This document shows positions 858 to 37,138 of a stretch of DNA of 64,000 nt, piece by piece. The translations under genes and the position numbers were made by a program. Every line of letters starts with the position of its first letter. Positions within the stretch are counted from its first letter, which is position 1. The notes under the pieces were generated by a model, which saw only the letters and a list, made by a program, of their open reading frames with translations, searched no databases and was not told the DNA's origin. Source of the stretch: an uncultured Gemmatimonadota bacterium (GTDB lineage: Bacteria; Gemmatimonadota; Gemmatimonadetes; Gemmatimonadales; Gemmatimonadaceae); NCBI GenBank assembly GCA_902826615.1, contig CADEFN010000002.1, forward strand, positions 677,344 through 741,343, given 5' to 3'.

Positions 858-1739
858 TCAGCGGCGGCTCAGCTCCTCGTAGACCGCGCGCACAAAGCGC
901 TCGTGACCGCCCGCCCACTCCTTCTCATATGCTGTGGTGAGTTTGAGAGCGAGCACCTGATCAATCGTCTTCCCCGCCCGCACCTCCGCCTGCACCCGTT
1001 CGCGCACGGCGTACACGGCATCACGCCACGCCTTGAGCCGCTTGCGATCCGTCACCTGCCCGTGGCCGGGGATGATCTTGGTCTGATCGTTGGTCATGGC
1101 GTAGACCTTGTCGACCGCGCTGATCACACCATTCACTGACCCACCACTCGACAGGTCGATGAAAGGCAGTCCGGTGTTGTTGAAGACATCGCCCATGTGC
1201 ACCGCGTTGGCCTTGCGAAAGTGTACCACCGCATCGCCGTCCGTATGCGCGGGATCGACATGGGTCACGATCACTGAATCGCCGTTCAGGTGAAAGGTGA
1301 CGCCATCGTTGAACGTGACCACCGGCAGTGCCGCTTTGGGCGACGGAGGCTCGCGACGATTCATCGCCGCCATGAACTGCTCGGTCGACATGCGTTTGCG
1401 CACGTTGTCGTGCGCCACAATCACTGCGTCGGCCTTGCCGAAGTTCTCGTTGCCACCGGTGTGATCAAAGTGCCAGTGCGTGTTGACCACAAACTTCACC
1501 GGCTTGGGGCTCAACGTGCGGATGGCCGCGACGATTTTGGGCGTCAGCGGCGCGAACTGGTCGTCGATGATGAAGACGGCATCGTCGCCGACGGAGACGC
1601 CGATGTTTCCCCCGGCCCCAAAAAGCACATGCAGCCCCGGTGACAGCTGAACGGGGCGCACCTGCACGGTGTCGTAGTTGGTCTGGGCCGCCAGGGCCGC
1701 CGGCAGGCCGAGCAGGGCAAGCAACATTGGAATGCGCAC
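858..1739 (-). CDS. Periplasmic metallo-beta-lactamase-fold hydrolase
   Basis: This is a 293-residue exported metallo-beta-lactamase-fold protein. An N-terminal hydrophobic signal ending near AALAAQ (about residue 19) suggests periplasmic location. The metal site is complete: HWHFDH at residues 88-93, a following His at 165 in AHTDGD, Asp184 in HMGDVF and His226 in PGHG. The layout (early HxHxDH and GHG near the C terminus) resembles the exported MBL proteins often annotated as SoxH- or quinoprotein-relay-like. The sequence does not give the substrate. A beta-lactam role is possible but not favoured, because the neighbours are general hydrolases. It converges on the amine oxidase and diverges from the S41 gene, with 154 bp between the start codons. 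Confidence 0.85.
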   Translation of the reverse strand: MRIPMLLALLGLPAALAAQTNYDTVQVRPVQLSPGLHVLFGAGGNIGVSVGDDAVFIIDDQFAPLTPKIVAAIRTLSPKPVKFVVNTHWHFDHTGGNENFGKADAVIVAHDNVRKRMSTEQFMAAMNRREPPSPKAALPVVTFNDGVTFHLNGDSVIVTHVDPAHTDGDAVVHFRKANAVHMGDVFNNTGLPFIDLSSGGSVNGVISAVDKVYAMTNDQTKIIPGHGQVTDRKRLKAWRDAVYAVRERVQAEVRAGKTIDQVLALKLTTAYEKEWAGGHERFVRAVYEELSRR

Positions 1740-1893
1740 AGAACACCGTGGTCGAGAGGTGAAGCGGGGAAGTTATCACGCCCCGGCGATTGCACCATCG
1801 TGGCAGGGCCGCGATGGGCCGATCGAGCCCCACGTGACGGCGTCGGGTGCACCCGGAAACCACTCGGCCCGCCAGCGTGTATTGGATCGCAGC

Positions 1894-2886
1894 ATGCGCC
1901 GATTCCTCGCCTCCCTCGTTCTCATGGTTGTCGCCTGCAGCGACAACCCCGCAGCCCCTTCTGCATCGACACCCGCCGAGGGTTTCGATGTGGTGTGGAG
2001 TGCGTTTGACGAGCTCTATCCATACTTCGGGCTCAAGCAGGTGAACTGGAGTGCCTCACGGAGCACCTATCGACCGCGCGCTGGTCAAGCCACCGACGTG
2101 GCCGCACTCAATCAGGTGCTGCTCGACATGCTCGCACCGCTGCGCGACGTGCACGTATCGCTCGAATCCCCGGATGGCCAGCGCACGCCAACCTATCGGC
2201 CCTCCGCCACGGTGAACTTCTCCACCCCGCTCTGGCAACGTGTGGTTGCCGCCGGCGGATGGACACAACTCAAGCCCAACCTTGGCAGTGCGCGAATTGA
2301 CGGCGTGCCCTACATCGCCATCGGAGGCTGGAACAGCACGCAGTTCAGTGTTGCAGATCTCGACGCTGCCCTCGAACCATTTCGCGCCGACTCCGCGCTC
2401 ATCATCGACGTGCGGCCTAACGGCGGTGGCAACGATCAGCTGGCGCTCGACTTCGCTCGGCGCTTTACCACCGCCACCGTACTCACTGAGATCTTCCGCT
2501 TTCGCACCGGACCAGGACCTAACGATCTGGGACGCGAAACACGACGCACCATTGCGCCTCGCGGACCCTGGCAATTCACCAGGCCGGTGTATGTCCTGAG
2601 CGGACGCGCAGTGTTCAGCTCCAACGAGAGCTTTGTTGCGGCCATGCGGGCCTTGCCCAATGTGACCATCGTGGGCGATACGACAGGTGGCGGCACCGCC
2701 AATCCCACGTCACGGCCCTATTTCGGCGGCTGGAAGGTGCATGTGTCCACCTGGTTCGCCACGCTGCCCGACGGCACACCCATCGAGGGACGCGGGATTC
2801 CACCGGACGAGTACGTGCCGTGGCCGACCCCGGGAGCGCGCGACCCGGTGATCGACGCCGCCGTCGCCCTCGCGCGAACGCGCTGA
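1894..2886 (+). CDS. S41-family (tail-specific-type) protease, lipoprotein
   Basis: This is a 330-residue S41 peptidase, predicted to be lipid-anchored outside the inner membrane. The ATG at 1894 is chosen because it gives a proper lipoprotein signal: MRRF, a hydrophobic stretch and lipobox VVAC with Cys15. The longer upstream frame is not signal-like. Family features are the DVRPNGGGN turn (about 172-180), the nucleophile region FSSNES (Ser242 or 243 with Glu245), and GDTTGGGTA just after. There is no PDZ domain, so it resembles the short S41 proteins with an N-terminal three-helix region rather than CtpA. Two CCTAACG heptamers occur in it (2416 and 2518), both read as Pro-Asn. A cloverleaf repeat starts four bases after the stop codon. 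Confidence 0.85.
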   Translation: MRRFLASLVLMVVACSDNPAAPSASTPAEGFDVVWSAFDELYPYFGLKQVNWSASRSTYRPRAGQATDVAALNQVLLDMLAPLRDVHVSLESPDGQRTPTYRPSATVNFSTPLWQRVVAAGGWTQLKPNLGSARIDGVPYIAIGGWNSTQFSVADLDAALEPFRADSALIIDVRPNGGGNDQLALDFARRFTTATVLTEIFRFRTGPGPNDLGRETRRTIAPRGPWQFTRPVYVLSGRAVFSSNESFVAAMRALPNVTIVGDTTGGGTANPTSRPYFGGWKVHVSTWFATLPDGTPIEGRGIPPDEYVPWPTPGARDPVIDAAVALARTR

Positions 2887-2890
2887 ACAG

Positions 2891-2958
2891 ACTCTGGGCC
2901 CTGACTTTCGTCAGGGAACGCACTGCCCGCTCCCCGGACGTGATCCTGGGCCCAGTGT
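2891..2958. repeat. Cloverleaf repeat, copy 1 (inverted relative to copy 2)
   Basis: An outer stem of 11 bp with one mismatch (2891-2901 with 2948-2958) encloses three hairpins with almost no unpaired bases. The first is TGAC-TTTC-GTCA (2902-2913). The second is an imperfect GGGA...TCCC arm (2914-2934), and the third is a CGGA...TCC arm (2935-2947). It is the decayed reverse complement of the element at 19418-19486. It sits just after the S41 stop codon and before the next plus-strand gene, so it may act on mRNA ends as well as being a dispersed repeat. Confidence 0.75.
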
Positions 2959-3049
2959 CTTCTGAGATCCAAGACGAAGTTGACGCCGCGCTATTGACGG
3001 CACCCCGTCCGAGACGGCAGATCAGGGTTTGCCCCTCCACCAGCAAACC

Positions 3050-16981: not shown

Positions 16982-19393
16982 ATGTCTCACCTGTCCCCCT
17001 TTGCCATGTCACGAACGCTCGCCAAAGCGCTGGCCCTCCTGCTCCTCCCCCTCGCCCTCCCTGCCCAGGAGGCCCCCTTCATTGGGGTTCGGGTGGACCA
17101 GGACCGCAACAAGGTCCTGCTCGATGTCACCCAGGATCGGGTGGGCAAGGATTTCCTCCATCAGAGTGTGCTCGCCACGGGCGGCGGCGCTGCCCCCCTG
17201 GGGCTCGACCGCGGCCAGACGGGGGGCAGCGTGGTGGTGCGCCTCGAACGACGCGGCAAACGCCTGGTACTGGTTCGCGACAACTGGAACGCACGAGCCA
17301 TCGGCGCCGACGAGGCTGGCCAGCGTGGCGCGGCCGAAGCCTTTGCTACCTCGGTCATCGCCTGGTTTCCCATCGAATCTGAGGCGAATGGGGTGATGGT
17401 CGCCGACGCGACGTCCCTCTTTCTCTCCGACACCTATGGTATCGCCGAGACCCTGCGCCGCTCCCAGCAGGGGACGGCACGTGTGGATGCCAATCGCAGC
17501 TGGATCGACCCCGCGCGCACGAAGGCCTTCCCACGCAACACCGAAATCCACGCCGTCCTCACCTTTGGCGTAGACAACCCGGGTCAGGCGCTGCGGCGTG
17601 GGGCGCCCGATGCAGCGTCGCCCACCTTCGAGGTGCATCACTCCCTGGTAGCGCTACCCGATCCCCAGGGATTCCGCCCTCGTGTCGCCGACTCGCGCAC
17701 GGGATTGTTTGGCGGTCCCTTCAACGACTTCGGACAGACATACGAAGGGATCTATCGGGGCGGTAACACCGCTCGCTGGCGCCTGGTGCCAAAGGATCCC
17801 GCCGCCTACATGCGCGGTGAGCTCACGGAGCCCATCACGCCAATCGTCTACCACCTCGATCCCGCCATTCCCGAGCCCTATCGCTCGGCCTTCCGCGAAG
17901 GGGGGATGTGGTGGAACAAGGTCTTCGAAGGAGCGGGCTGGAAAAACGCCTTCCAGGTGCGTGACCTTCCGGCGGGCGCCGACCCGATGGACGCCCGTTA
18001 CACCATGATCTACTGGGTGCATCGCAATATTCCCGGCCCGTCGGTCGGCCCATCCCTTTCCGATCCGCGCACCGGTGAAATCGTTCGCACCGTCGTGCGC
18101 ATGGATTCGTGGCGTTCGCTCATTGACTACAACATCTATGCGGGCTTGTTGCCTGCGGCTGGACCCGGCGGCCTCAATGTGCCCGCCGATCAGTTCGTCG
18201 CCATGCGGCGTCGTCAACACGTGGCCCACGAAATTGGTCACACGCTTGGCATGTCACACAACTACATCGCACACGCTCAGGGCCGCTCGAGTGTGATGGA
18301 CTATCCCTTCCCGCTCATCTCTGTGGATGCTCGCGGTACGCTCGATCTCAGCAAGGCCTACGCGCCCTTTGCAGGTGCGTGGGACTCACTGGCCATTCGG
18401 TACGGACACAGCTGGTACCCCGACGAAGCCAGCGAAAAAGCCGGGCTCGCGAAGATCATCAAGGAGATGCTCGATCGCGACGTGCGCTTTGTCGCCGACC
18501 AGCACGCCGATGCGTCGGGTTCCATTCCCGAGGTCACGCGCTGGGTCGAAGGGAAAACCATGTTCGAAGCCGTCGAACGCACCTCGGCCGTGCGTCGTCT
18601 GGCCATCGACAAGTTCGACGAACGGGCGATCAAGCCGGGTGAGCCGATGTACCTGCTCAACATGCGCTTTGCCCACGTCTATTTGCATCACCGGTATTCG
18701 CTCGAAGGGCTGGTGAAATACGTGGGTGGGATGGACTTCCGGTACGCCATGCGTGGTGACGGGCAGACGCCCACCACCATCCTCCCCGCTGCGTCGCAGC
18801 GACGCGCGTTAGGCATGGCCCTCGACGCCCTCGAACCCGCACAACTTGCGGTGCCCGAGCGGGTGATGGCCCTCATTCCTCCCACACCCTATGGTGGCGA
18901 CGACTACTTCGAGTGGATCGGGTCGGCGGGTGGCACCTCCTTCGACCAGATCTCGCTTGCTGGTGGCGTGGCCACCGAGGTCATCGAGGGACTCCTGCAC
19001 CGCGAACGCGCCGCACGGGTGGTGCAGTTCGCCGCGCGCGACGCCACGCTTCCGACGCTCGACGAGGTGATGACGCAAATTGTGCAGCGCACCTGGGGAG
19101 CGCCGGCCGCCGCCAACGCCAACGCGCAGGCACTGCGCCGAACGGTGCAGCGCGTGGTGCTCAACACGCTCCTCGATCGCGCTGGTGACCGTTTGGCTCT
19201 TGCCGAGGTGCGGCAGGCCGCCGAGTGGCATCTGCAGCAGCTCGATTCGCGCCTGGCCGCAATGACCGGCGGAACACCAGCCGACCGTGCTCTGCGCGCC
19301 TCGGCTCGTCGCGAAATCGAGGCCTACTTTGACGGAGACGATGACCCGGCGAAACGCTCGCGTTTTGCGGTCATTCCACTTCCCTGGCCGTAG
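16982..19393 (+). CDS. Zinc-dependent metalloprotease (DUF5117/DUF4953 type)
   Basis: This is an 803-residue exported metalloprotease. A signal peptide of about 29 residues ends near LPAQE. An ATG at 17006 is an alternative start giving the same signal, but GGGGGT lies just upstream of 16982. The zinc motif is HEIGHTLGMSH at 416-426 (HExxHxxGxxH, metzincin type), with the Met-turn SVMDYP shortly after. The long N-terminal beta-rich region and the C-terminal helical region match the large bacterial proteases annotated with DUF5117, DUF5118 and DUF4953. These are common in Gemmatimonadota and Bacteroidota and are thought to degrade extracellular protein. The gene stands alone, with a cloverleaf repeat 25 bp after its stop. 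CGTTAGG at 18807 encodes Leu-Gly. Confidence 0.88.
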   Translation: MSHLSPFAMSRTLAKALALLLLPLALPAQEAPFIGVRVDQDRNKVLLDVTQDRVGKDFLHQSVLATGGGAAPLGLDRGQTGGSVVVRLERRGKRLVLVRDNWNARAIGADEAGQRGAAEAFATSVIAWFPIESEANGVMVADATSLFLSDTYGIAETLRRSQQGTARVDANRSWIDPARTKAFPRNTEIHAVLTFGVDNPGQALRRGAPDAASPTFEVHHSLVALPDPQGFRPRVADSRTGLFGGPFNDFGQTYEGIYRGGNTARWRLVPKDPAAYMRGELTEPITPIVYHLDPAIPEPYRSAFREGGMWWNKVFEGAGWKNAFQVRDLPAGADPMDARYTMIYWVHRNIPGPSVGPSLSDPRTGEIVRTVVRMDSWRSLIDYNIYAGLLPAAGPGGLNVPADQFVAMRRRQHVAHEIGHTLGMSHNYIAHAQGRSSVMDYPFPLISVDARGTLDLSKAYAPFAGAWDSLAIRYGHSWYPDEASEKAGLAKIIKEMLDRDVRFVADQHADASGSIPEVTRWVEGKTMFEAVERTSAVRRLAIDKFDERAIKPGEPMYLLNMRFAHVYLHHRYSLEGLVKYVGGMDFRYAMRGDGQTPTTILPAASQRRALGMALDALEPAQLAVPERVMALIPPTPYGGDDYFEWIGSAGGTSFDQISLAGGVATEVIEGLLHRERAARVVQFAARDATLPTLDEVMTQIVQRTWGAPAAANANAQALRRTVQRVVLNTLLDRAGDRLALAEVRQAAEWHLQQLDSRLAAMTGGTPADRALRASARREIEAYFDGDDDPAKRSRFAVIPLPWP

Positions 19394-19417: not shown

Positions 19418-19486
19418 GACGCTGGGCCCCGGATCAAGTCCGGGGAGCGAAGCAGCGCTCCCTGACGAAAGTCAGGGCCCAGCGTC
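19418..19486. repeat. Cloverleaf repeat, copy 2 (intact)
   Basis: A perfect 12-bp outer stem (19418-19429, GACGCTGGGCCC, with 19475-19486) encloses exactly three adjacent hairpins with no spacer bases. Hairpin 1 is CGGA-loop-TCCG at 19430-19442. Hairpin 2 is GGGAGCG-loop-CGCTCCC at 19443-19462. Hairpin 3 is TGAC-GAAA-GTCA at 19463-19474, with a GNRA-type tetraloop. It lies between two convergent genes. A partial outer-arm-like sequence (GTTGGGCCCGGAG) follows at about 19505. A decayed copy in the opposite orientation is at 2891-2958. Its form recalls REP/BIME-type dispersed palindromes; it is not a tRNA. Confidence 0.85.
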
Positions 19487-19522
19487 ATTCGTACTTGTTG
19501 AGACGTTGGGCCCGGAGGGACC

Positions 19523-20878
19523 TTACCTGATGACCTTCACCTCGTTCATCCGCCGTACCGGCGAGACGTAGGCACTCACCAGACTCTCCAGCCCGTCCGC
19601 GCCGACCGCCGCCACACCGAACACCCAGTCGTCGATGGACATGCCCGTCATGGTGTGCGTGGTGGTGTTGCCCACAACGCGGGACTGCTGCCAGTCGTTT
19701 TCCCAGGCGTCGCGCCAGTACACCTTGTAGGCCACGGCGCCGGGCACCTCACGCCAGGCCAGCGTGGCGTCGTAGCCCGACGGCAGTCGCGACAAGGTTG
19801 CGCCGCGCTCCGCTGCCACAATCGGTGCGGTCGGTGCCAGCGCCAGTGATCCCGCCCCCGCCGCATTCACGCGTGCATTCTGCGCCAGGTACTTGAAGTC
19901 CACTCCCTCGATTTTGTCTTCCGCTGTGTGCTGGCGGGAGAAGTTCTCATTCGACTCGCGAAAGACGGCCGCCGGGTAACCGTGTGCGGTAAACGACGAG
20001 TGATCGCTGCCACGTCCAAAGCGATCTTCGCGCGCCATGAGACGAATGCGATGGGCCGGCACGTAGGTGGCAGCTGCTCGCGCGATGTAGCGGGCCAGCG
20101 ACCGGGACATGCCATCTTCGGGACCCAGCGAATACACTCGCACGCTTTCGTTGTCGATCATCCCGTTGCCGCCCTGCGAGTTGCCGACGATGTCGTTGTT
20201 GAACATCCCCTCCACCACACCCTTGGAGGCGGCAAGCGCCTGCGCATGGGCCGACGACCCGATCAATCCCTGTTCTTCACCGGCCCAGCAGATAAACACG
20301 AGCGTGGCGTCGAATTCGAGCCCGCTCTCGGCGAACACACGCGCCAGCTCCATGGTGAGCACCGTGCCACTGCCATCGTCGTTGGCACCCGGTGCATCGA
20401 TGTCGTGATTGAACTCGCGGCTGGCCTGCGGGTTGTTGCCACCGGAGTTGAGGGCGAGCTGCCCACCCGAGCCAAGGTTGACTGTGTCGTAGTGCCCGGT
20501 GATGTAGACGCGGCGAGGTGAGCGTCCCGGCAGCACCGCCATCACATTGCGCAGCTCGACCTCACGGGTGATCCGGCCCTGGGGCGCGATGCGATGCGAG
20601 TCATACGACACCTGCAACTTCGGTCCCGATCGCTTGAGTTCGTCGAAAATCCACCGCCTGGCCGCACCAATGCCTCGGGTGGCCGACATCGTGTCGGACA
20701 ACGTCGAGCGGGTTCCGAACGAAACAAGCTTCTGTGTCAGGGCGCGCAAACGGTCTTCCGAGACCGCTGCCACCAGTTTGGCGATTCGCGGATCAGCGTC
20801 GGGACGTGCCGCCTGCGCACCTGCCGCGTGGATGGCGGAAACACTGATCAGCGCGGCGAGGGCAAGTGAGCGTTGCAT
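19523..20878 (-). CDS. M28-family aminopeptidase with C-terminal fibronectin-like domain
   Basis: This is a 451-residue secreted di-zinc aminopeptidase. The ATG at 20878 starts a signal peptide (MQRSLALAAL to AGAQA). The upstream frame overlaps the M50 gene and is rejected. Zinc ligands and catalytic residues of family M28 are visible: His129 in GHYDTVN, Asp167 in GANDDGSG, Glu201-Glu202 in AGEEQG, Asp229 in NNDIVGN and a late His in SDHSSFTAHG. The last 90 residues form a fibronectin III-like domain (ATLAWREVPG to AAVGADGLES), usual in this subgroup. It is the last gene of a minus-strand set: DUF2167 protein, M50 protein, then this gene, with gaps of 2 and 26 bp. Confidence 0.88.
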   Translation of the reverse strand: MQRSLALAALISVSAIHAAGAQAARPDADPRIAKLVAAVSEDRLRALTQKLVSFGTRSTLSDTMSATRGIGAARRWIFDELKRSGPKLQVSYDSHRIAPQGRITREVELRNVMAVLPGRSPRRVYITGHYDTVNLGSGGQLALNSGGNNPQASREFNHDIDAPGANDDGSGTVLTMELARVFAESGLEFDATLVFICWAGEEQGLIGSSAHAQALAASKGVVEGMFNNDIVGNSQGGNGMIDNESVRVYSLGPEDGMSRSLARYIARAAATYVPAHRIRLMAREDRFGRGSDHSSFTAHGYPAAVFRESNENFSRQHTAEDKIEGVDFKYLAQNARVNAAGAGSLALAPTAPIVAAERGATLSRLPSGYDATLAWREVPGAVAYKVYWRDAWENDWQQSRVVGNTTTHTMTGMSIDDWVFGVAAVGADGLESLVSAYVSPVRRMNEVKVIR

Positions 20879-20904
20879 GCAGAGCACTGGGATGAAAGGA
20901 GAGA

Positions 20905-21618
20905 TCAGCCGTACGACGCACCAGGGTACACCAAACTGACAGCCGCTGTGAACACCGGCTGGAAGATGAGCGGCACCACCTTCCACGAAATGATGATTCC
21001 CACCCACGCCAGCATCGGCGTTCCCCAGAGAAACTCCTGATAACGCCCCACCAGACCCTCCGGCATGAGCAGCGTAATGGCGGCGCTGCCATCCAGCGGT
21101 GGCAGGGGGATCATGTTGAACACCGCCAGCAGCAGGTTGAGCGAGAAGACCACACCGAGGATGATCCCCACGGTTCCCCACGCGGCGCTCCCGGCCGACT
21201 GCGCGATTTCACCAAAGTGAATCGTCGCCGGTGGCACAAAGACTCCCGCCATGGTGCCGACCCGGAGGATCAAGCCACAAATGATGACAAGCATCAGATT
21301 GGACGCCGGGCCTGCCAGCGCCATCCAGGCGGCACGATCGGGGTGCCGTCGCGCCCAGTTGGGATCGTATGGGGCACTCGCATATCCAAACGGCCACCCG
21401 GTCGCGAGTGCGGTGATCAGTGGCAACACCACCATGCCGATCGGCTCGCGACGGATATGGGGCATGGGATCCAGCGACACCTGTCCCCCAAGGTAGGCCG
21501 TCGGGTCTCCACCACGCAGCGCGGCCCAGGCATGAGCCGCCTCGTGGAGCGTGGTCGAGAAGAGGAAGGCGACAAAATAGAGCAGCGCATCCCCGACGTG
21601 CATTGCCATCTCACCCAT
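20905..21618 (-). CDS. M50-family (site-2-protease-like) membrane metalloprotease
   Basis: This is a 237-residue polytopic membrane protein of the short site-2-protease family. The zinc motif is HEAAHA (His25, Glu26, His29) in the first membrane segment. The third ligand is Asp176 in NMIPLPPLDG, the hallmark second motif. There is no PDZ or CBS domain, so it matches the compact cyanobacterial/Rv-type family whose targets are usually unknown. It starts 2 bp after the DUF2167 gene and is followed after 26 bp by the M28 peptidase, which suggests one transcript. No anti-sigma substrate is encoded beside it. Confidence 0.88.
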   Translation of the reverse strand: MGEMAMHVGDALLYFVAFLFSTTLHEAAHAWAALRGGDPTAYLGGQVSLDPMPHIRREPIGMVVLPLITALATGWPFGYASAPYDPNWARRHPDRAAWMALAGPASNLMLVIICGLILRVGTMAGVFVPPATIHFGEIAQSAGSAAWGTVGIILGVVFSLNLLLAVFNMIPLPPLDGSAAITLLMPEGLVGRYQEFLWGTPMLAWVGIIISWKVVPLIFQPVFTAAVSLVYPGASYG

Positions 21619-23269: not shown

Positions 23270-24861
23270 AAACCATCGAGACCGACATCTGCATCATCGG
23301 CAGCGGCATCACCGCCGCCCTGATGGCCGAACACCTGGCCGAGCACACCACGCGCAAGATCACGGTGCTCGAAGCGGGCAAACCCTCGACACCGTTCGGC
23401 GAGCGTGCGCGCATGCGCGAGCGGTATCAGGCCTATGGCGAGAGTCCGTGGAAAGAGGATCATCTCGATGACCAGAACGCGTACGGGGTTACCCACGGTT
23501 TTTCGCCGAGTATGCATGTGGGGGGACTCGCCATGCACTGGGGCGGCGTGTCGCCTCGTTATGCACCCGAAGACTTTCAGGTGAAGTCACTGTATGGCAT
23601 CGGCAGCGACTGGGCCTTCTCGTACGATGATCTCGACCCGTTTTATCAGGAAGCCGAAGAACGCATGGGCATTGCGGGTGAACAGGGTCCGCCAGCACTC
23701 GACCCGCGCGGGAAGCCGTATCCCCTCCCCCCACTTCCGGTCAACTACAACCTCGCCCAGCTGCAGCAATGGGCGTCGAAAGCCGGCATTGCGGCCTGGA
23801 GCACTCCGTCGGCCAAGAACTCGCAACCCTACAAGGATCGTGCGGTCTGCCAGCGTTGCGACACCTGTTATCCTGTGTGCCCGACCGGGGCAAAGTACTC
23901 ACCCGATTTTTCGTGGAATTCGCTGACGAAGGCCGGCAAGGTTACCCTTGAAACCGAGACCCTCGTCAGGCGCCTGGAGGCAGACCCGAAAACCGGCCGC
24001 ATCGTTCGCGCGACGGGAAACAAGACAGACGCGAGTGGTGAAGAGGTCACGGTCACGGCCAAAACGTTTTTGTTGGCCGCGGGGTTTGTCTGGTCGGCAC
24101 ATCTCCTCCTGCTCTCACGTGACTCCGCACATCCCGAAGGACTCGCCAATCGCAGCGGATTGGTAGGAAAGTATCTCGCCGGACATCGCAACATCGGAGG
24201 GCAGATCTCCCTTCCCCTGGAGCTCTATCCCGGGATCAACGTGCAGCACTCGCTGGTGTCCAAGCAGTTCATGCGCGCGAGCCGCAAGGGCCGCTACCTG
24301 CGGCACGATCTGCGCATCTGGGAATCGAGTGTCGGCCGCGAACCGCGCCTGCGCGACGGCGATGGCAACCTCCTGCTCGGCGATGCCCTCATGACCGACT
24401 GGCGTGCACGCGCCAAGGGGGCAACAGCGCGTGTGCGGACCTACTACGACATCATGCCGGACCGCGAGAGCAAGCTGGTGCTCGACGACGCCCGCAAAAA
24501 TCGCTTTGGCGATCCCATGCCGCACCTCACCTTTCGCGATGCGCCGGAAAGCGCCGATCTGCGCGGGTGGCAGGAAGAAGAACTCCGCACCTTCATTCGC
24601 GGAATGGCCAGGGCGGGAGGGGGTGAGGCCCTTAACCTCAACAGCAGCTCAAACGATATCGGGCAGGAGCACCCCACCGGGGGCTGCCGCATGGGCACCG
24701 ACCCCGCCAGCAGCGTGGTAGATGGCTGGGGGCGCGCCCACGATCACGAGAACCTCTGGGTCGCGGGGGCGCCCATTCTGCCGACTGCGTCATGCACCAA
24801 CGGCACCCTCACGTTCGTCGCCGTCGGCCTCCGCACAGCGTCCGCGATCGCCAAAGACTAA
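23266..24861 (+). CDS. GMC-family FAD oxidoreductase with four-cysteine cluster
   Basis: This is the 531-residue large subunit of a GMC dehydrogenase. The N-terminal dinucleotide site is CIIGSGITAAL, and the C-terminal GMC domain has HPTGGCRMGTDP and the active-site His/Asn region near the end. Cysteines 195, 198, 201 and 205 form CxxCxxCxxxCP. This looks like an iron-sulfur-type motif also seen in other membrane GMC dehydrogenases, so electron transfer to a respiratory carrier is likely. It has no export signal of its own. Co-export with the Tat subunit encoded just upstream is inferred from the ATGA overlap. Probable substrates are sugars, sugar acids or alcohols. A 9-bp-unit hairpin repeat begins two bases after the stop. 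Confidence 0.88.
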   Translation: MKTIETDICIIGSGITAALMAEHLAEHTTRKITVLEAGKPSTPFGERARMRERYQAYGESPWKEDHLDDQNAYGVTHGFSPSMHVGGLAMHWGGVSPRYAPEDFQVKSLYGIGSDWAFSYDDLDPFYQEAEERMGIAGEQGPPALDPRGKPYPLPPLPVNYNLAQLQQWASKAGIAAWSTPSAKNSQPYKDRAVCQRCDTCYPVCPTGAKYSPDFSWNSLTKAGKVTLETETLVRRLEADPKTGRIVRATGNKTDASGEEVTVTAKTFLLAAGFVWSAHLLLLSRDSAHPEGLANRSGLVGKYLAGHRNIGGQISLPLELYPGINVQHSLVSKQFMRASRKGRYLRHDLRIWESSVGREPRLRDGDGNLLLGDALMTDWRARAKGATARVRTYYDIMPDRESKLVLDDARKNRFGDPMPHLTFRDAPESADLRGWQEEELRTFIRGMARAGGGEALNLNSSSNDIGQEHPTGGCRMGTDPASSVVDGWGRAHDHENLWVAGAPILPTASCTNGTLTFVAVGLRTASAIAKD

Positions 24862-24862
24862 C

Positions 24863-24975
24863 GAGAGGCACGAGAAGCACGAGAGGCACGAGAGGCACGA
24901 AAAGACGGGAAGCACGAGAAGCACGAAGCCAAGCGCTCCCGTGCCTCCCGTGCCTCCCGTGCCTCCCGTGCCTCT
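24863..24975. repeat. 9-bp-unit inverted tandem repeat, copy 1
   Basis: A left arm of about seven imperfect 9-mers of the type ACGAGAGGC (24863-24928) is followed by a right arm of four CTCCCGTGC units plus a partial one (24935-24975). The arms are near-complementary, with about one mismatch per 9-mer, so the transcript can fold into a long hairpin. It fills the whole gap between two convergent genes and may act as a bidirectional terminator. Frames read through it give low-complexity Arg/His/Glu/Lys strings and are not genes. Confidence 0.8.
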
Positions 24976-27922: not shown

Positions 27923-30247
27923 TCAGGGGGAGGGCGGCGCCTTGATCTCGTACCCTGCCGGAGGGTCGATCCCCAGCAGGTGCTTCACGAAGTAGTCCCA
28001 GGTACGCCGCACCATGTACGGCTCCGCCGCAAATCCGTGGTTCCGGTTGGGCATGATGAACATGTCAAAGTCCTTGTTGGCCTTGATCAGTTCATCAATC
28101 ACCAGCTGGGTGGCCACGGGATGGACGTTGTCGTCGAGGGTGCCATAGGTCAGCAGCAGCTTCCCCGTGAGGTTGCGAGACTTTCTCCAGTTTGACTGGG
28201 AATCGAAGGAGTCGGTGGTGTCGCTGAGTTTCTTGAGCAGGCCGTGGTACTTCTCGCCCCAGGTAAAGTCATAGCTGCGATTGTCATGGTTGCCGGCGCT
28301 CGACACGGCCACCTTGAAGAAGTCGGGATAGGTGAGCATGGCGTCGGTGGAGGCAAAGCCGCCGCCCGAGTGGCCGTAAATCCCCACGCGGTCGATGTCG
28401 ATCTGTGGCACACGCGCTGCCAGCTGCTTGATGGTGGTCACCTGGTCGGGGATGCCATTGTCCGTCATGTTGCCGTAGTAGGCATCGTGGAAAGCCTTCG
28501 AACGCCCCGGCGTGCCTAACGCATCGACGAGTACCACAAAAAAGCCGAGCTCGGCGAGCGCGTTGGCATTGCCATTCGCCGCAGCCCTGAACTGCCGTGT
28601 GCCCAGGGAGCCCACCTGCGGGCCGGGGTACACATAATCGATGATCGGATACCGCCTGGTCGAGTCGAAGTGCGCCGGGTACCAGAGCACACCGTAGAGG
28701 TCCGTCGTCCCATCACGGGCTTTCACCTTGAAGGGGCGCGGGGGCCGAAAGCCCGCCGCCGCCAGCTGTACAATGTTTGCCGACTGCAGGCTTTTCACGA
28801 CGGTGCCATCGGCCCGGCGGATGACCGTGACCGGGGGACGCACCGGCGTCGAGTACACATCGACCACAAACTTCCCCGACGGCGCCATCGCAATCTCGTG
28901 ATCCGCATCTTCGGGGCTCAGCAACTCGATCGCCGAGCCGTCGAGTTTGGCGCGGTAGAGATGCCGGAAGTACGGGTCGCGGTCCTTCTCGCGTCCGCGC
29001 CCGGTGAAATACGCCCAGCGCAACGTCTCATCAATCCACAGCAGGTCCGCCACCTGCCAGTCACCACTCGTTATGCGGTTGCGAATGGTCCCGGTGGCAC
29101 CATCCACCAGGTAGAGGTGTCCCCATCCATCGCGCTCCGACCACCAGACCATCTCCTTCCCACCACCAACAGGACGCCAGTTGGGAACACCACCGGACCC
29201 CTGATTGGTTTCGACGAAGGTCTTGCTCGTTTCCTTGAGGACACTCCGTGTCGTGCCCGTGCGGGCGTCGGCCACCACCAGCTCCAGTTCATCAAACGAC
29301 CGTTTGCCGGCGGTGAACATCACCTGATCGTTCCCTGCCCAGCGCACATCCTTCCACACGGTGTCCGACGCCAGCCAGCAGCACGACGTATTGATCGCGT
29401 CGGTCGGTCCACGGTTCACCTTCACCGGCTGCCGTGCCGCGACATCGATGACATACAGCTCCCAGGTGGGAATGACGCTGTCGCCCGGGAGTGCATAACG
29501 ATACGAGTGCAGGATGGGCCCGGGATTCTTGGTCTCGAGCAGGTGCATCAGGCGTACGTTGCGCTGGTCCCACTTGTGGGTCACCAGTCGCTTCGAGTCC
29601 GGCGACCAGAGGACAAAGGGCCGCAGCTCGGCCTTGTTCCGTTTGTTGGTCACCTGCTGGCAGCACCCGATGTTGTTGAGCCCATACCCCCAATCGGGTG
29701 ACCCATCACTCGTCAGGCGCTGTTCGGCACTGCCGGCCACTGGTCGCACAAAGAGATTGCCATCGCGTTCGTAGGCCACCATCTGCCCATCAGGTGAGCG
29801 CACCTCACTGGCTTTGGTAGTCGGCAGCGTGTCGGGGCCGGTGCAGGCATAGGTCGACACATTGCAGGTCCAGGACCGGTTGCGCCCAACAGAGAACCGG
29901 ATCGCCTGCTCGTTCTGCACCCAGATGAGATCACGGAAGGGAAGCTTGCCGGCGTCGTATGTCGTGTCGGCCGCCAGTGAGAGCGCCGACGCCAGACGTG
30001 CATGGTCGAACGCCGCCCGTTTGGCACCCGTGGCGAGATCCACGATCGCGAACTCATATCCCGACTCCGCGCGATTGCGGTACCAGAAGCGCTCCCCGCT
30101 CATCCAGCGCGGCCTCACCGCGTCGTCGATCACCAGCTCGCCGGCGTTCCATGACAGGAGTTGCTCGGCGCGAGCATAGTCGGTGCGAGTCCCCTGGGCG
30201 CTGACGAGAGCCGGGAGCAGGAGGAGAGGGAGTACACGTTTGTGCAT
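27923..30247 (-). CDS. S9B (DPP-IV-like) prolyl peptidase
   Basis: This is a 774-residue exported dipeptidyl-peptidase-IV-type enzyme. ATG 30247 begins a signal peptide (MHKRVLPLLL to LVSAQG). The 89 codons before it are rejected because they lack a signal and run back through the start of the divergent small gene. The N-terminal beta-propeller covers about 35-480. The alpha/beta-hydrolase domain has Ser627 in GHSGGG, Asp705/706 in TLDDNVHP and His737 in NRNHGF. Such enzymes remove Xaa-Pro or Xaa-Ala dipeptides from peptides in the periplasm. A paralogue lies at 34585-37026. The gene diverges from the small membrane protein, with 122 bp between them. CGTTAGG at 28515 encodes Leu-Gly. Confidence 0.9.
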   Translation of the reverse strand: MHKRVLPLLLLPALVSAQGTRTDYARAEQLLSWNAGELVIDDAVRPRWMSGERFWYRNRAESGYEFAIVDLATGAKRAAFDHARLASALSLAADTTYDAGKLPFRDLIWVQNEQAIRFSVGRNRSWTCNVSTYACTGPDTLPTTKASEVRSPDGQMVAYERDGNLFVRPVAGSAEQRLTSDGSPDWGYGLNNIGCCQQVTNKRNKAELRPFVLWSPDSKRLVTHKWDQRNVRLMHLLETKNPGPILHSYRYALPGDSVIPTWELYVIDVAARQPVKVNRGPTDAINTSCCWLASDTVWKDVRWAGNDQVMFTAGKRSFDELELVVADARTGTTRSVLKETSKTFVETNQGSGGVPNWRPVGGGKEMVWWSERDGWGHLYLVDGATGTIRNRITSGDWQVADLLWIDETLRWAYFTGRGREKDRDPYFRHLYRAKLDGSAIELLSPEDADHEIAMAPSGKFVVDVYSTPVRPPVTVIRRADGTVVKSLQSANIVQLAAAGFRPPRPFKVKARDGTTDLYGVLWYPAHFDSTRRYPIIDYVYPGPQVGSLGTRQFRAAANGNANALAELGFFVVLVDALGTPGRSKAFHDAYYGNMTDNGIPDQVTTIKQLAARVPQIDIDRVGIYGHSGGGFASTDAMLTYPDFFKVAVSSAGNHDNRSYDFTWGEKYHGLLKKLSDTTDSFDSQSNWRKSRNLTGKLLLTYGTLDDNVHPVATQLVIDELIKANKDFDMFIMPNRNHGFAAEPYMVRRTWDYFVKHLLGIDPPAGYEIKAPPSP

Positions 30248-30369
30248 GGCCACGGGCGCAGATGAGGCTGTCGGGGAGTGCCGGAAGCGGGAAACTTCGC
30301 GCCGGAACACCGCCGCGCCAGAGAGTTCACCGACTCGACCAGTGGTCCACCGTGACGTATCGTAGCCCC

Positions 30370-30633
30370 ATGTCCGCCAGCACAACCCGACTCGTCCTCC
30401 GGGGCGCGCGGAGCGCACTCGTCGGTGCGTTCCTCGGTGCGGTGTTGTGCGTGCTGGCTTACCTCCCCGCCTTGTTCGTCGACGGTCCCGCCGACACCAG
30501 CGCAGGCGCCACACGCCTCATGATTGGCGTAGTCCTTGTGGGGGCCCGCATGGGTGCCGTTGGCGGAATCATCTTTTTTCTGGTGAAGCGGTCGCTCACC
30601 GGCGAGGTCGCCGACCCTCGCCTTCACAACTGA
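30370..30633 (+). CDS. Small two-helix membrane protein, unknown
   Basis: This is an 87-residue protein starting at the ATG at 30370, after a Thr/Arg-rich N terminus. Two hydrophobic segments (about 15-37 and 48-69, the latter rich in Gly and Val) predict two membrane spans with a short basic C-terminal tail (KRSLTGEVADPRLHN). I do not recognise the family. It stands between divergent and co-oriented neighbours, with a promoter-sized gap (122 bp) on its left and 278 bp on its right. The hydrophobic pattern and base composition fit a real gene, but no conserved motif supports a function. Confidence 0.55.
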   Translation: MSASTTRLVLRGARSALVGAFLGAVLCVLAYLPALFVDGPADTSAGATRLMIGVVLVGARMGAVGGIIFFLVKRSLTGEVADPRLHN

Positions 30634-34492: not shown

Positions 34493-34578
34493 GAGGCACG
34501 AGAGGCACGAGAAGCACGGGAAGCACGAGGTCATGATGCCCCGTCGTGCCTCCCGTGCTTCCCGTGCTTCCCGTGCTA
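34493..34578. repeat. 9-bp-unit inverted tandem repeat, copy 2
   Basis: Four 9-mers GAGGCACGA, GAGGCACGA, GAAGCACGG, GAAGCACGA are followed after a short loop by four units of the complementary type (CGTGCCTCC, CGTGCTTCC). The innermost units pair perfectly. It lies between the stop of the S9 peptidase gene and the start of the symporter gene, both on the minus strand. The unit is the same as at 24863-24975. Confidence 0.8.
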
Positions 34579-34584
34579 CCGCCC

Positions 34585-37026
34585 CTACCGCGGTGCCTTG
34601 AACGGCTTCCAGAACGGGAAGCCCACATCGTCCCACGTGTCGTCGTCCGGCGCCATGGTGCGGCCCGGGGCCCCTTCCACCGGCTGCTTGATCTCGTAGT
34701 TGTCAGGCGGTGTGCCACCAGCCAGGTGCTGCACGAAGTAGTCCCAGCGGCGGCGGATGAAGTAGGGCTCGTTCAACCCATGGTTCCGGTTGGGCGCCCA
34801 CACCATGTCGAACGCCTTGTTCGCCTTGATCAACTCATCGATCACCTGGACAGTCATGGCCGGGTGCACGTTGTCATCCATGTCGCCGTGCATCAGCATC
34901 AGCTTGCCCTTCAGGTTCTTGACCATCGTCTTGTTGGCCGACGTCTCGAAGTTGTCGGTCTTGCGCACCGAGTCGCGCACCATGAGTCCCTGGTATTTCT
35001 CGGCCCAGTAGATGTTGTAGGAGCGATTGTCGTGGTTGCCCGCGCCGCTCACCGCCACCTTGAAGAAGTCGGGATACCGGAGAATGGCATCGGTCGAGGC
35101 AAAGCCGCCGCCCGAGTGCCCGAAGATTCCCACCTTGTCGGTGTCAATGAACCTGTGCCGCGCGCCAAGCTGCTTGATGGCGGTGATATGGTCAGGCAAG
35201 CCGTTGTCACCAAAGAAGCCGTAGTAGTTGTCGTGGAACGACTTCGACCGCAGCGGCGTGCCAAGGTGATCGAGCTGGATGACGACGAAGCCGAGTTCGG
35301 CGAGCGCGTAGGGCTCACCACCGTTGGTGAAGTTCCACCCACGCACCGACCCCACCTGCGGTCCCGGGTAGATGTGCGAGATGATCGGATAACGCTTGGT
35401 GGAATCCATGTTCGACGGCAGATACATCAGGCCATAGATGTCCGTCACGCCATCGCGGGCCTTGGTGCTGAACAACTGCACCGGCTTCCACCCGATTTCC
35501 TTGAGACGCGTGATGTCGGCTTCTTCGATCTTCTTGATCACGCGACCATCAACCGCCGAACGCACGACGGTCACCGGGGGCGTCTGCAGCGTGGAGTAGG
35601 TGTCCACGAAGTACTTGCCGCTCGGGCTGAAGCTGATCGCGTGATGGGCATCCTCGGTGGTGAGCTGCGTGAGCCCGCTGCCGTCGTACCCCATGCGATA
35701 CAACTTGGGATAGTAGAGGAACCCATCGCGTCCACGAGCGGTGAAGTAGACCTGCTTGGCGACTTCGTCCACATGCGAGATCTGCCCCACCTGGAAGGCG
35801 CCCGTGGTGAGCTGTGCCTTGGGCTCCGGCGTCATCACCAAACCACCATCACCATCCGTCGAGGCAATCGACGACACGCCAGCGCCATCAAAGCGGTACA
35901 GGTGGCCCCAGCCATCTCGCTCCGACCACCAGAAGGCGTCCTTCTGGTCCTTGGTCACGTAGAAAGAACCCGGGTCCTGCGGGTTGGAAATCTCTACATA
36001 CGTCTTGCCGGTGTCGCGTGCAATCACCCGCATCTCGCCAGTGGTGGCGTCCACAGCGGCCAGATACGCGCTCTTGGAGCCACGGGTGTACATCGAGATG
36101 TTGAGCGTCTTCCCTTCATCGGCCCACGCCGAGTCACGCACCGACCCACCGATGGAAAGCTGATTGGGGCGCGGAGCGATCTTGGCCTGCACACTTTGCT
36201 TGCTGGCCACGTCGATGAGGTACAGGTACGGACGCGGCACCGCGCTGTCGCCCGGCAGTGCGTAGGGCTGCGAGTATTGTTTGGTGCGCTGCCCGGTGTA
36301 CTGCACGTAGTAATGGTGTGCCACGTAGCGCTCATCCTGACGGACGACAGCGATCTTCTTCGAGTCCGGTGACCACCGCAGATTCGGGCGCCGCTGATTC
36401 ACCCGATTGAACTGCAACTCACTCGGCCTCGGCATGGTGAGGCCGTACTGCCAATAGTCCACGCCGTCAGTGGTGAGCTGCGTGCTGTCGGTGCCATTGC
36501 GTGAGCGCACCCACACATTGCCTTTCGAGATGAAGGCTTCCTGCTTTTTGTCAGGAGAGAGCACATAACGCTGTTTGCCTGCAATCGTGTCGCCCACGGT
36601 GCAGCGGTACGCGGCGATGTCGCAGACGTAGCGTTTCCGGTTGGCCGTGAATTCGATCTCCTTCTCGTTGTCACCGTCCTGCGTGAACTCGAAGTTTTGG
36701 AAGGGGAGCTTGTGGGCTTCCCACGCCGTGTCGCCGGCAATGGTCATGGCGCGCGCCAGCTTGACATGGTCAAAGAGCTGTCCGCGGGTCCCCGTGACGG
36801 GATCGACCACCACAAACTCCGAGCCGGTGTTGGTCTTGTTGCGATACCAGAAGCGATTGCCGTCCTTCAACCACGATGGCCGGACCTCGTCGCCCGCCAC
36901 CAGGGTTCGGGTGTTCCAATCCAGCAGCTGCTCCGCCTTGGAGTAGGAGACTTGCTGGGCCGGCAAAGCGAGGGCGCTTCCGACGAGCAGGAAGCCGACC
37001 GTGAAGCGGGAGTGTCGTACGATCAT
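34585..37026 (-). CDS. S9B (DPP-IV-like) prolyl peptidase, second copy
   Basis: This is an 813-residue exported DPP-IV-type peptidase. ATG 37026 is preceded by GAGG at good spacing and starts a signal peptide (to about LALPAQ). The beta-propeller domain occupies about 40-500. The hydrolase domain has Ser638 in GHSGGG, Asp717/718 in DMDDNVHP and His749 in NRNHGL. Compared with its paralogue at 27923-30247 it has a C-terminal extension of about 30 acidic and Pro-rich residues. The two share segments such as AVSGAGNHDNRSY and IDELIKANK, so they are clear paralogues. It follows the cupredoxin-like gene in a minus-strand series that begins with SusC, which suggests a dipeptide-release role in one uptake locus. 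Confidence 0.9.
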   Translation of the reverse strand: MIVRHSRFTVGFLLVGSALALPAQQVSYSKAEQLLDWNTRTLVAGDEVRPSWLKDGNRFWYRNKTNTGSEFVVVDPVTGTRGQLFDHVKLARAMTIAGDTAWEAHKLPFQNFEFTQDGDNEKEIEFTANRKRYVCDIAAYRCTVGDTIAGKQRYVLSPDKKQEAFISKGNVWVRSRNGTDSTQLTTDGVDYWQYGLTMPRPSELQFNRVNQRRPNLRWSPDSKKIAVVRQDERYVAHHYYVQYTGQRTKQYSQPYALPGDSAVPRPYLYLIDVASKQSVQAKIAPRPNQLSIGGSVRDSAWADEGKTLNISMYTRGSKSAYLAAVDATTGEMRVIARDTGKTYVEISNPQDPGSFYVTKDQKDAFWWSERDGWGHLYRFDGAGVSSIASTDGDGGLVMTPEPKAQLTTGAFQVGQISHVDEVAKQVYFTARGRDGFLYYPKLYRMGYDGSGLTQLTTEDAHHAISFSPSGKYFVDTYSTLQTPPVTVVRSAVDGRVIKKIEEADITRLKEIGWKPVQLFSTKARDGVTDIYGLMYLPSNMDSTKRYPIISHIYPGPQVGSVRGWNFTNGGEPYALAELGFVVIQLDHLGTPLRSKSFHDNYYGFFGDNGLPDHITAIKQLGARHRFIDTDKVGIFGHSGGGFASTDAILRYPDFFKVAVSGAGNHDNRSYNIYWAEKYQGLMVRDSVRKTDNFETSANKTMVKNLKGKLMLMHGDMDDNVHPAMTVQVIDELIKANKAFDMVWAPNRNHGLNEPYFIRRRWDYFVQHLAGGTPPDNYEIKQPVEGAPGRTMAPDDDTWDDVGFPFWKPFKAPR

Positions 37027-37098: not shown

Positions 37099-37138
37099 GC
37101 CCGTGCCTCTCGTGCTTCCCGTGCTTCCCGTGCTTCCG
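37099..37138. repeat. 9-bp-unit tandem repeat, copy 3 (single arm)
   Basis: Four consecutive 9-mers (CCCGTGCCT, CTCGTGCTT, CCCGTGCTT, CCCGTGCTT) lie just after the stop of the cupredoxin-like gene. The unit is that of copies 1 and 2, but the complementary arm is missing, so no long hairpin forms. It may be an intermediate or a decayed copy. Confidence 0.75.

Follow-up and report, generated by a model that had tools for sequence, protein, structure and literature searches.

Does the 69-bp element at 19418-19486 act as a folded junction in its own right, or is it a member of a family of repeats? The preliminary description of the window (the whole stretch of 64,000 nucleotides analysed here, from an uncultured Gemmatimonadota bacterium) had allowed for both, proposing either a mobile REP-like palindrome or a functional RNA/DNA junction. 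The fold on which it relied is confirmed by our calculations. The element, referred to as element 1, reads GACGCTGGGCCC / CCGGATCAAGTCCGG / GGAGCG..CGCTCC / CTGACGAAAGTCAG / GGGCCCAGCGTC and forms a three-hairpin junction with a 12-bp outer stem and a GAAA loop. As DNA, this fold has an energy of -29.3 kcal/mol (z -5.64), which none of 200 shuffles equalled, and the RNA of the plus strand reaches -53 kcal/mol (z -6.27). The cloverleaf is favoured on the plus strand only and is one of two competing folds, because RNA of the minus strand folds preferentially into a long, imperfect hairpin. An Rfam 15 scan of the window gave no match above the gathering score.

An inverted copy, which had been noted at 2891-2958, was found as well; it spans 2890-2959 and is 86% identical to element 1 (hereafter element 2). 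Both copies indeed lie just after gene stops, element 1 starting 24 nt behind a gene for a met-zincin-type protein and element 2 starting 3 nt behind an S41 peptidase gene. Element 1 sits between the met-zincin-type gene and an M28 peptidase gene, which are convergent. The features of both loci are as follows:

1678..2886, plus strand: S41 peptidase gene before element 2 (PF03572, E 5e-22)
2890..2920, plus strand: REP-type unit 1 of element 2, stem CCCTGAC/GTCAGGG (cmsearch with R2, 32 bits)
2928..2959, minus strand: REP-type unit 2 of element 2, inverted, with one stem mismatch (cmsearch with R2, 47.5 bits)
16982..19393, plus strand: gene of a met-zincin-type protein (DUF4953/DUF5117) before element 1 (PF16313, E 6e-51; PF17148, E 2e-29)
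19418..19449, plus strand: REP-type unit 1 of element 1, stem CCCCGGA/TCCGGGG, loop TCAAG, eroded tag AGCG (cmsearch with R2, 55.7 bits)
19455..19486, minus strand: REP-type unit 2 of element 1, inverted, stem CCCTGAC/GTCAGGG, loop TTTC, which is GAAA on the plus strand (cmsearch with R2, 32.1 bits)
19502..19519, plus strand: possible truncated unit head (GACGTTGGGCCCGGAGG), uncertain and perhaps due to chance (7.8 bits, E 6)
19523..21181, minus strand: M28 peptidase gene after element 1, convergent (PF04389, E 4e-30)

Element 1 consists of two copies of a 32-nt unit in inverted orientation and is not one designed cloverleaf. Reading of the genome copies gave the build of the unit as GACRCTGGR, a 7-bp stem with a 4-5-nt loop, and RRCG. 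Three types of unit hairpin occur (CCCCGGA-TCAAG-TCCGGGG, CCCTGAC-TTTC-GTCAGGG and CCCCGGC-TTTC-GCCGGGG), and in element 1 a unit of the first type faces a unit of the second. The host genome (5.9 Mb, 99% complete) contains 46 BLAST matches to element 1 at E<=10, many of which span half of the element. A covariance-model search, which the preliminary description had put forward as a check, did reveal further copies of the unit: 31 matches in this genome at E<=0.01 and 39 at E<=1. The units are arranged as singles, as pairs of both polarities and as one tandem array, the latter consisting of 80-bp tandem repeats at C1:741906-742177. As called, the dimers comprise eight with tags inside and five with tags outside, in addition to the tags-inside pair at 2890-2959. 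Nearly all units carry a CCAG tail, and they end in RRCG or GAC, the GTAG tag being absent. Some units harbour a structured loop insert of 20-22 nt, for example GCGGTCGCTCTCGCTCCCTT (L031:6149-6199, L038:3103-3153 and L039:3907-3957), and such long structured loops are the rule in another genome of the genus, G003.

The preliminary description also held that the fold was conserved over the sequence and that the changes between the two copies were partly compensating. This is true of the unit's own 7-bp hairpin, but not of the outer stem and the cloverleaf junction. In the unit alignment 97.1% of the unit hairpin cells are paired, and 12 cells are altered on both sides against 3.1 in shuffles (none of the 500 shuffles reached 12) and 0-2 in slid controls, with the reservation that the test leans towards the hairpin because the alignment was fitted to the structure. 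The unit hairpin is kept by paired changes. The outer stem of eight tags-inside dimers, on the other hand, has 85 of 96 positions in Watson-Crick pairs, whereas random exchange of the halves gives 85.1 (P 0.71), and the fourth base of GACN varies independently between the two halves. The outer stem pairs no better than with exchanged halves and therefore follows from the inversion.

These results bear on the reading of the element as a functional cloverleaf junction of RNA or DNA (a cis-regulatory RNA or a recombination site). The very stable fold of element 1 speaks for such a role, yet we regard it as very improbable: the outer stem is kept no better than by chance pairing of halves, the eight dimers lack outer-stem covariation, many copies are single units, an Rfam match is absent and the minus strand folds differently. 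As the junction is not conserved and many copies are single or otherwise arranged, this part of the earlier proposal found no support. The cloverleaf is a by-product that forms because two inverted units lie a few bases apart. The case shows that a striking cloverleaf can arise as a by-product of two inverted repeats.

The unit family is limited to the genus, and not all members carry it. With the unit model it was detected in three of five genus genomes, that is, the host genome, G003 (26 matches) and G004 (58 matches), and was not found in the other two, G001 and G002, which are 95% and 100% complete. From the same family and order, 55 genomes yielded only two isolated weak matches to the unit model, and among 249 genomes sampled across the phylum the host genome was the sole match. 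Of 298 phylum genomes, one has the strict classical tagged form (GTCATYCCGG..CCGGRAYCCAG), in a single copy. Beyond the phylum, the exact core of the hairpin was found in at least 119 stretches, mostly of alphaproteobacteria, and the plasmid collection contributed one 33-nt match, in Novosphingobium. A literature search on Gemmatimonadota and REPs gave no paper on the subject by titles and abstracts, and the family seems not to have been described before in this phylum. One contig of G004, C858 (L090:869-1054), carries five head-to-tail units at a spacing of about 37 bp, with protease-like and cytochrome-oxidase-like ORFs on either side; no transposase was seen on it by eye.

The copies show a clear preference for gene ends. 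All 21 classified sites are intergenic, with none inside a called gene; 13 are convergent, seven co-directional and one divergent, the gene calls behind these classes being those of a home-made codon-score caller. Convergent junctions thus make up 13 of the 21 sites, compared with 9 of the window's 46 gene junctions (P 2.5e-5), and the units at convergent sites mostly start within about 50 nt of the stop codon. The simplest reading is that insertions persist where they are least harmful or somewhat useful. Positions just behind genes would also be expected of ordinary intrinsic terminators that had become alike by convergence. This we find scarcely credible: no T-tract follows the hairpins, the family is missing from sister species, and the conserved unpaired GACNCTGG flank together with the near-identical cores points to common descent. 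As repeats settled at gene ends, the hairpins may passively delimit the 3' ends of transcripts from both strands. A GC-rich hairpin at a gene end would belong to the 3' untranslated regions of the mRNAs on either side, where it could passively slow 3' exonucleases and read-through.

One site allows the unit to be compared with its absence. A lone unit at C1:915447-915478 of the host genome lies between two convergent genes, and the same two genes abut without the unit in G001 and G004 (TTTCGTTAGGCGAGCG), which makes an empty site. In G003 this junction holds a different array of REP-like units, namely tandem repeats of about 120 bp that contain REP-like hairpins (CTCCGGCGAAGGCCGGAGCCCCGTGTCGTT; L306, contig C309, left of the matched gene). 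A gain of the unit in the host lineage would be the simpler reading of this one site in two genomes. Orthologues of the gene before element 1 are present in G002, G003 and G004, and the element is missing from their 3' flanks; these flanks do not represent a clean empty site, because the neighbouring genes differ too. No usable synteny was found for element 2 and the L033 copy. With dispersed intergenic copies, a distribution limited to the genus, the hairpin core of CGTC-tagged REPs and one empty site, the suggestion of a mobile REP-like palindrome is supported.

What could have moved the units? The REPs with a GTAG tag and their dimers, the REPINs, are short palindromes in inverted pairs, dispersed between genes and moved by RAYT transposases (PMC3116915, PMC8266576), and the preliminary description had advised a search for a REP-associated tyrosine transposase. 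Such an enzyme was not found: the RAYT/Y1 transposase domain (PF01797) has no match in any of the five genus genomes, the host genome included, whereas it was recovered in the same way from 21 of the 60 genomes searched and from the control genomes. The absence from G003 and G004 is weaker evidence, because these genomes are only 74% and 82% complete. A classical REPIN family, in which REP dimers are moved by a genome-encoded Y1/RAYT transposase, would account for short palindromes in inverted pairs with short spacers and many intergenic copies. Still, the missing RAYT in a genus whose relatives and controls gave positive results, and units without the GTAG tag, make it quite improbable.

Alternatively, the dimer could be a MITE, a small element with terminal inverted repeats (GACRCTGGGCCC) that is moved by a DDE transposase. 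The 12-bp repeats of the dimer are near-perfect and conservation extends past the hairpin into the GACNCTGG flank, as this explanation would have it. But single units and tags-outside pairs are dispersed as well, so the dimer is not an obligatory unit. No transposase gene with such ends was seen between the neighbouring copies at C1:584969-586198 and C1:741907-744258, where by eye there are only ordinary-looking ORFs, a beta-lactamase-like one among them; nor do the unit copies read have a constant target duplication. We accordingly give the MITE very little credence.

The closest known kind is the superfamily of CGTC-tagged REPs, especially the CGTC-2/CGTC-3 type with 5-nt loops. As defined by Di Nocera et al. 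(2013, PMC3733652), these repeats have a CGTC tag (variants TGTC and CCTC) and a CCA tail; the stem measures 8-9 bp, its first two pairs being A-T, and the loop 4 or 5 nt. They are known mostly from alphaproteobacteria, lie mostly behind genes, convergent or co-directional, and are often heterodimeric; their dimers are mainly of the tags-outside (HH) form, TT being rare (PMC3733652). Apparently they have no dedicated transposase, and their mover was left open (PMC3733652). The neisserial dRS3 and the Rickettsia RPE-4/RPE-6 are classed with them, and Gemmatimonadota are not mentioned in the text of that paper (PMC3733652).

The units described here agree with general REPs, which are palindromes of 20-40 bp in many dispersed intergenic copies, in having 32 nt and 31-39 matches in the genome. 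They share with GTAG REPs and REPINs the short palindromes, inverted pairs and intergenic dispersal, and differ from them in the absent tag and the RAYT not found in the genus. With CGTC REPs they have more in common: the CCGGATCAAGTCCGG hairpin core of element 1, which is common in alphaproteobacteria, loops of 4-5 nt (TTTC and TCAAG, a subset of units here having longer structured loops), the CCA tail, heterodimers, positions behind genes and no dedicated transposase. Additionally, all 35 called units of G003 have GAC(G), which is the tag as read from the opposite strand, after the stem, and the A-T stem base is partly kept there (AT/GT at the base). The layout of tag, palindrome and CCA tail is also that of dRS3 and RPE-4/RPE-6; unlike our units, dRS3 forms large clusters in Neisseria, and RPE-4/RPE-6 insert inside genes, where none of our classified sites lies.

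The units also differ from CGTC REPs. The host genome has an eroded inner tag (AACG/AGCG, with CGCT/CGTT at the place of the tag), and the window's stems have 7 bp with G-C at the base, the A-T pairs being gone. Tags-inside dimers are common here and rare in the published CGTC families. Finally, the CCA side has a conserved second motif, GAC/YGTC: CTGG is immediately preceded by GACN (on the other strand, the CCA tail is followed by YGTC) in 31 of 42, 56 of 61 and 33 of 35 units called by script in the three genomes, the host-genome set including some false calls. Elsewhere this is so in 2 of 132 sites with the same core, a set chosen by the exact core and not an even sample. Because the tag is eroded and the A-T pairs of the stem base are missing, the element falls outside the strict CGTC definition, and we therefore class it as a variant rather than a typical member.

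On this evidence a mobile or once-mobile REP family, whose hairpins are passive at transcript 3' ends, is the most likely explanation. We are fairly confident that element 1 is an inverted pair of genus-limited 32-nt REP-type units, descended from or close to the CGTC-tagged superfamily, which would spread non-autonomously and stay passive at gene ends. The units would have spread as small non-autonomous elements, and the responsible enzyme may have been lost or may act in trans, perhaps as a single-strand transposase that binds the hairpin. Several points count against this explanation. As REP families go, the number of copies is modest; the window copies retain neither the strict CGTC tag nor the A-T stem base; and the search for a mobilising enzyme gave none. 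Moreover, the gain at the empty site is read from a single site in two genomes, and the gene positions come from a home-made caller.

The second motif permits a bolder proposal, which we consider unlikely. The units might be a two-tagged REP lineage (GACN..hairpin..GACG, that is, direct CGTC..YGTC) that spreads without RAYT, the tags being the two cleavage sites of a candidate single-strand transposase that moves CGTC REPs. If this were true, the CGTC-REP transposase could be sought in this small genus, some members of which carry the units while others do not. Carriers in three of five sampled species, an undetected RAYT and an extra conserved flank offer a presence/absence contrast for seeking the mover.

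Integron attC sites were also considered and dropped, as GTTRRRY/RYYYAAC boxes are not visible.

The window contains a second and much commoner repeat, a minisatellite with a 9-bp period (GGCACGAGA / CCCGTGCCT) in two arrays that face each other. It occurs at 24861-24926 with 24940-24975, at 34498-34528 with 34545-34578, and at 37102-37137. The facing arrays form very strong hairpins (RNA z -8.05 and -8.76), one of them located where two convergent genes end. Exact matches to the pattern CACGRGARGCACGRGARGCACG number 141 in the host genome and 45 in G003, often as close plus/minus pairs, with none in G001, G002 and G004 and none in the reversed control. Also, the two long ORFs at 27923-30514 and 34585-37026 on the minus strand, 6.7 kb apart, share several blocks of 71-79% identical DNA and are apparently paralogues.
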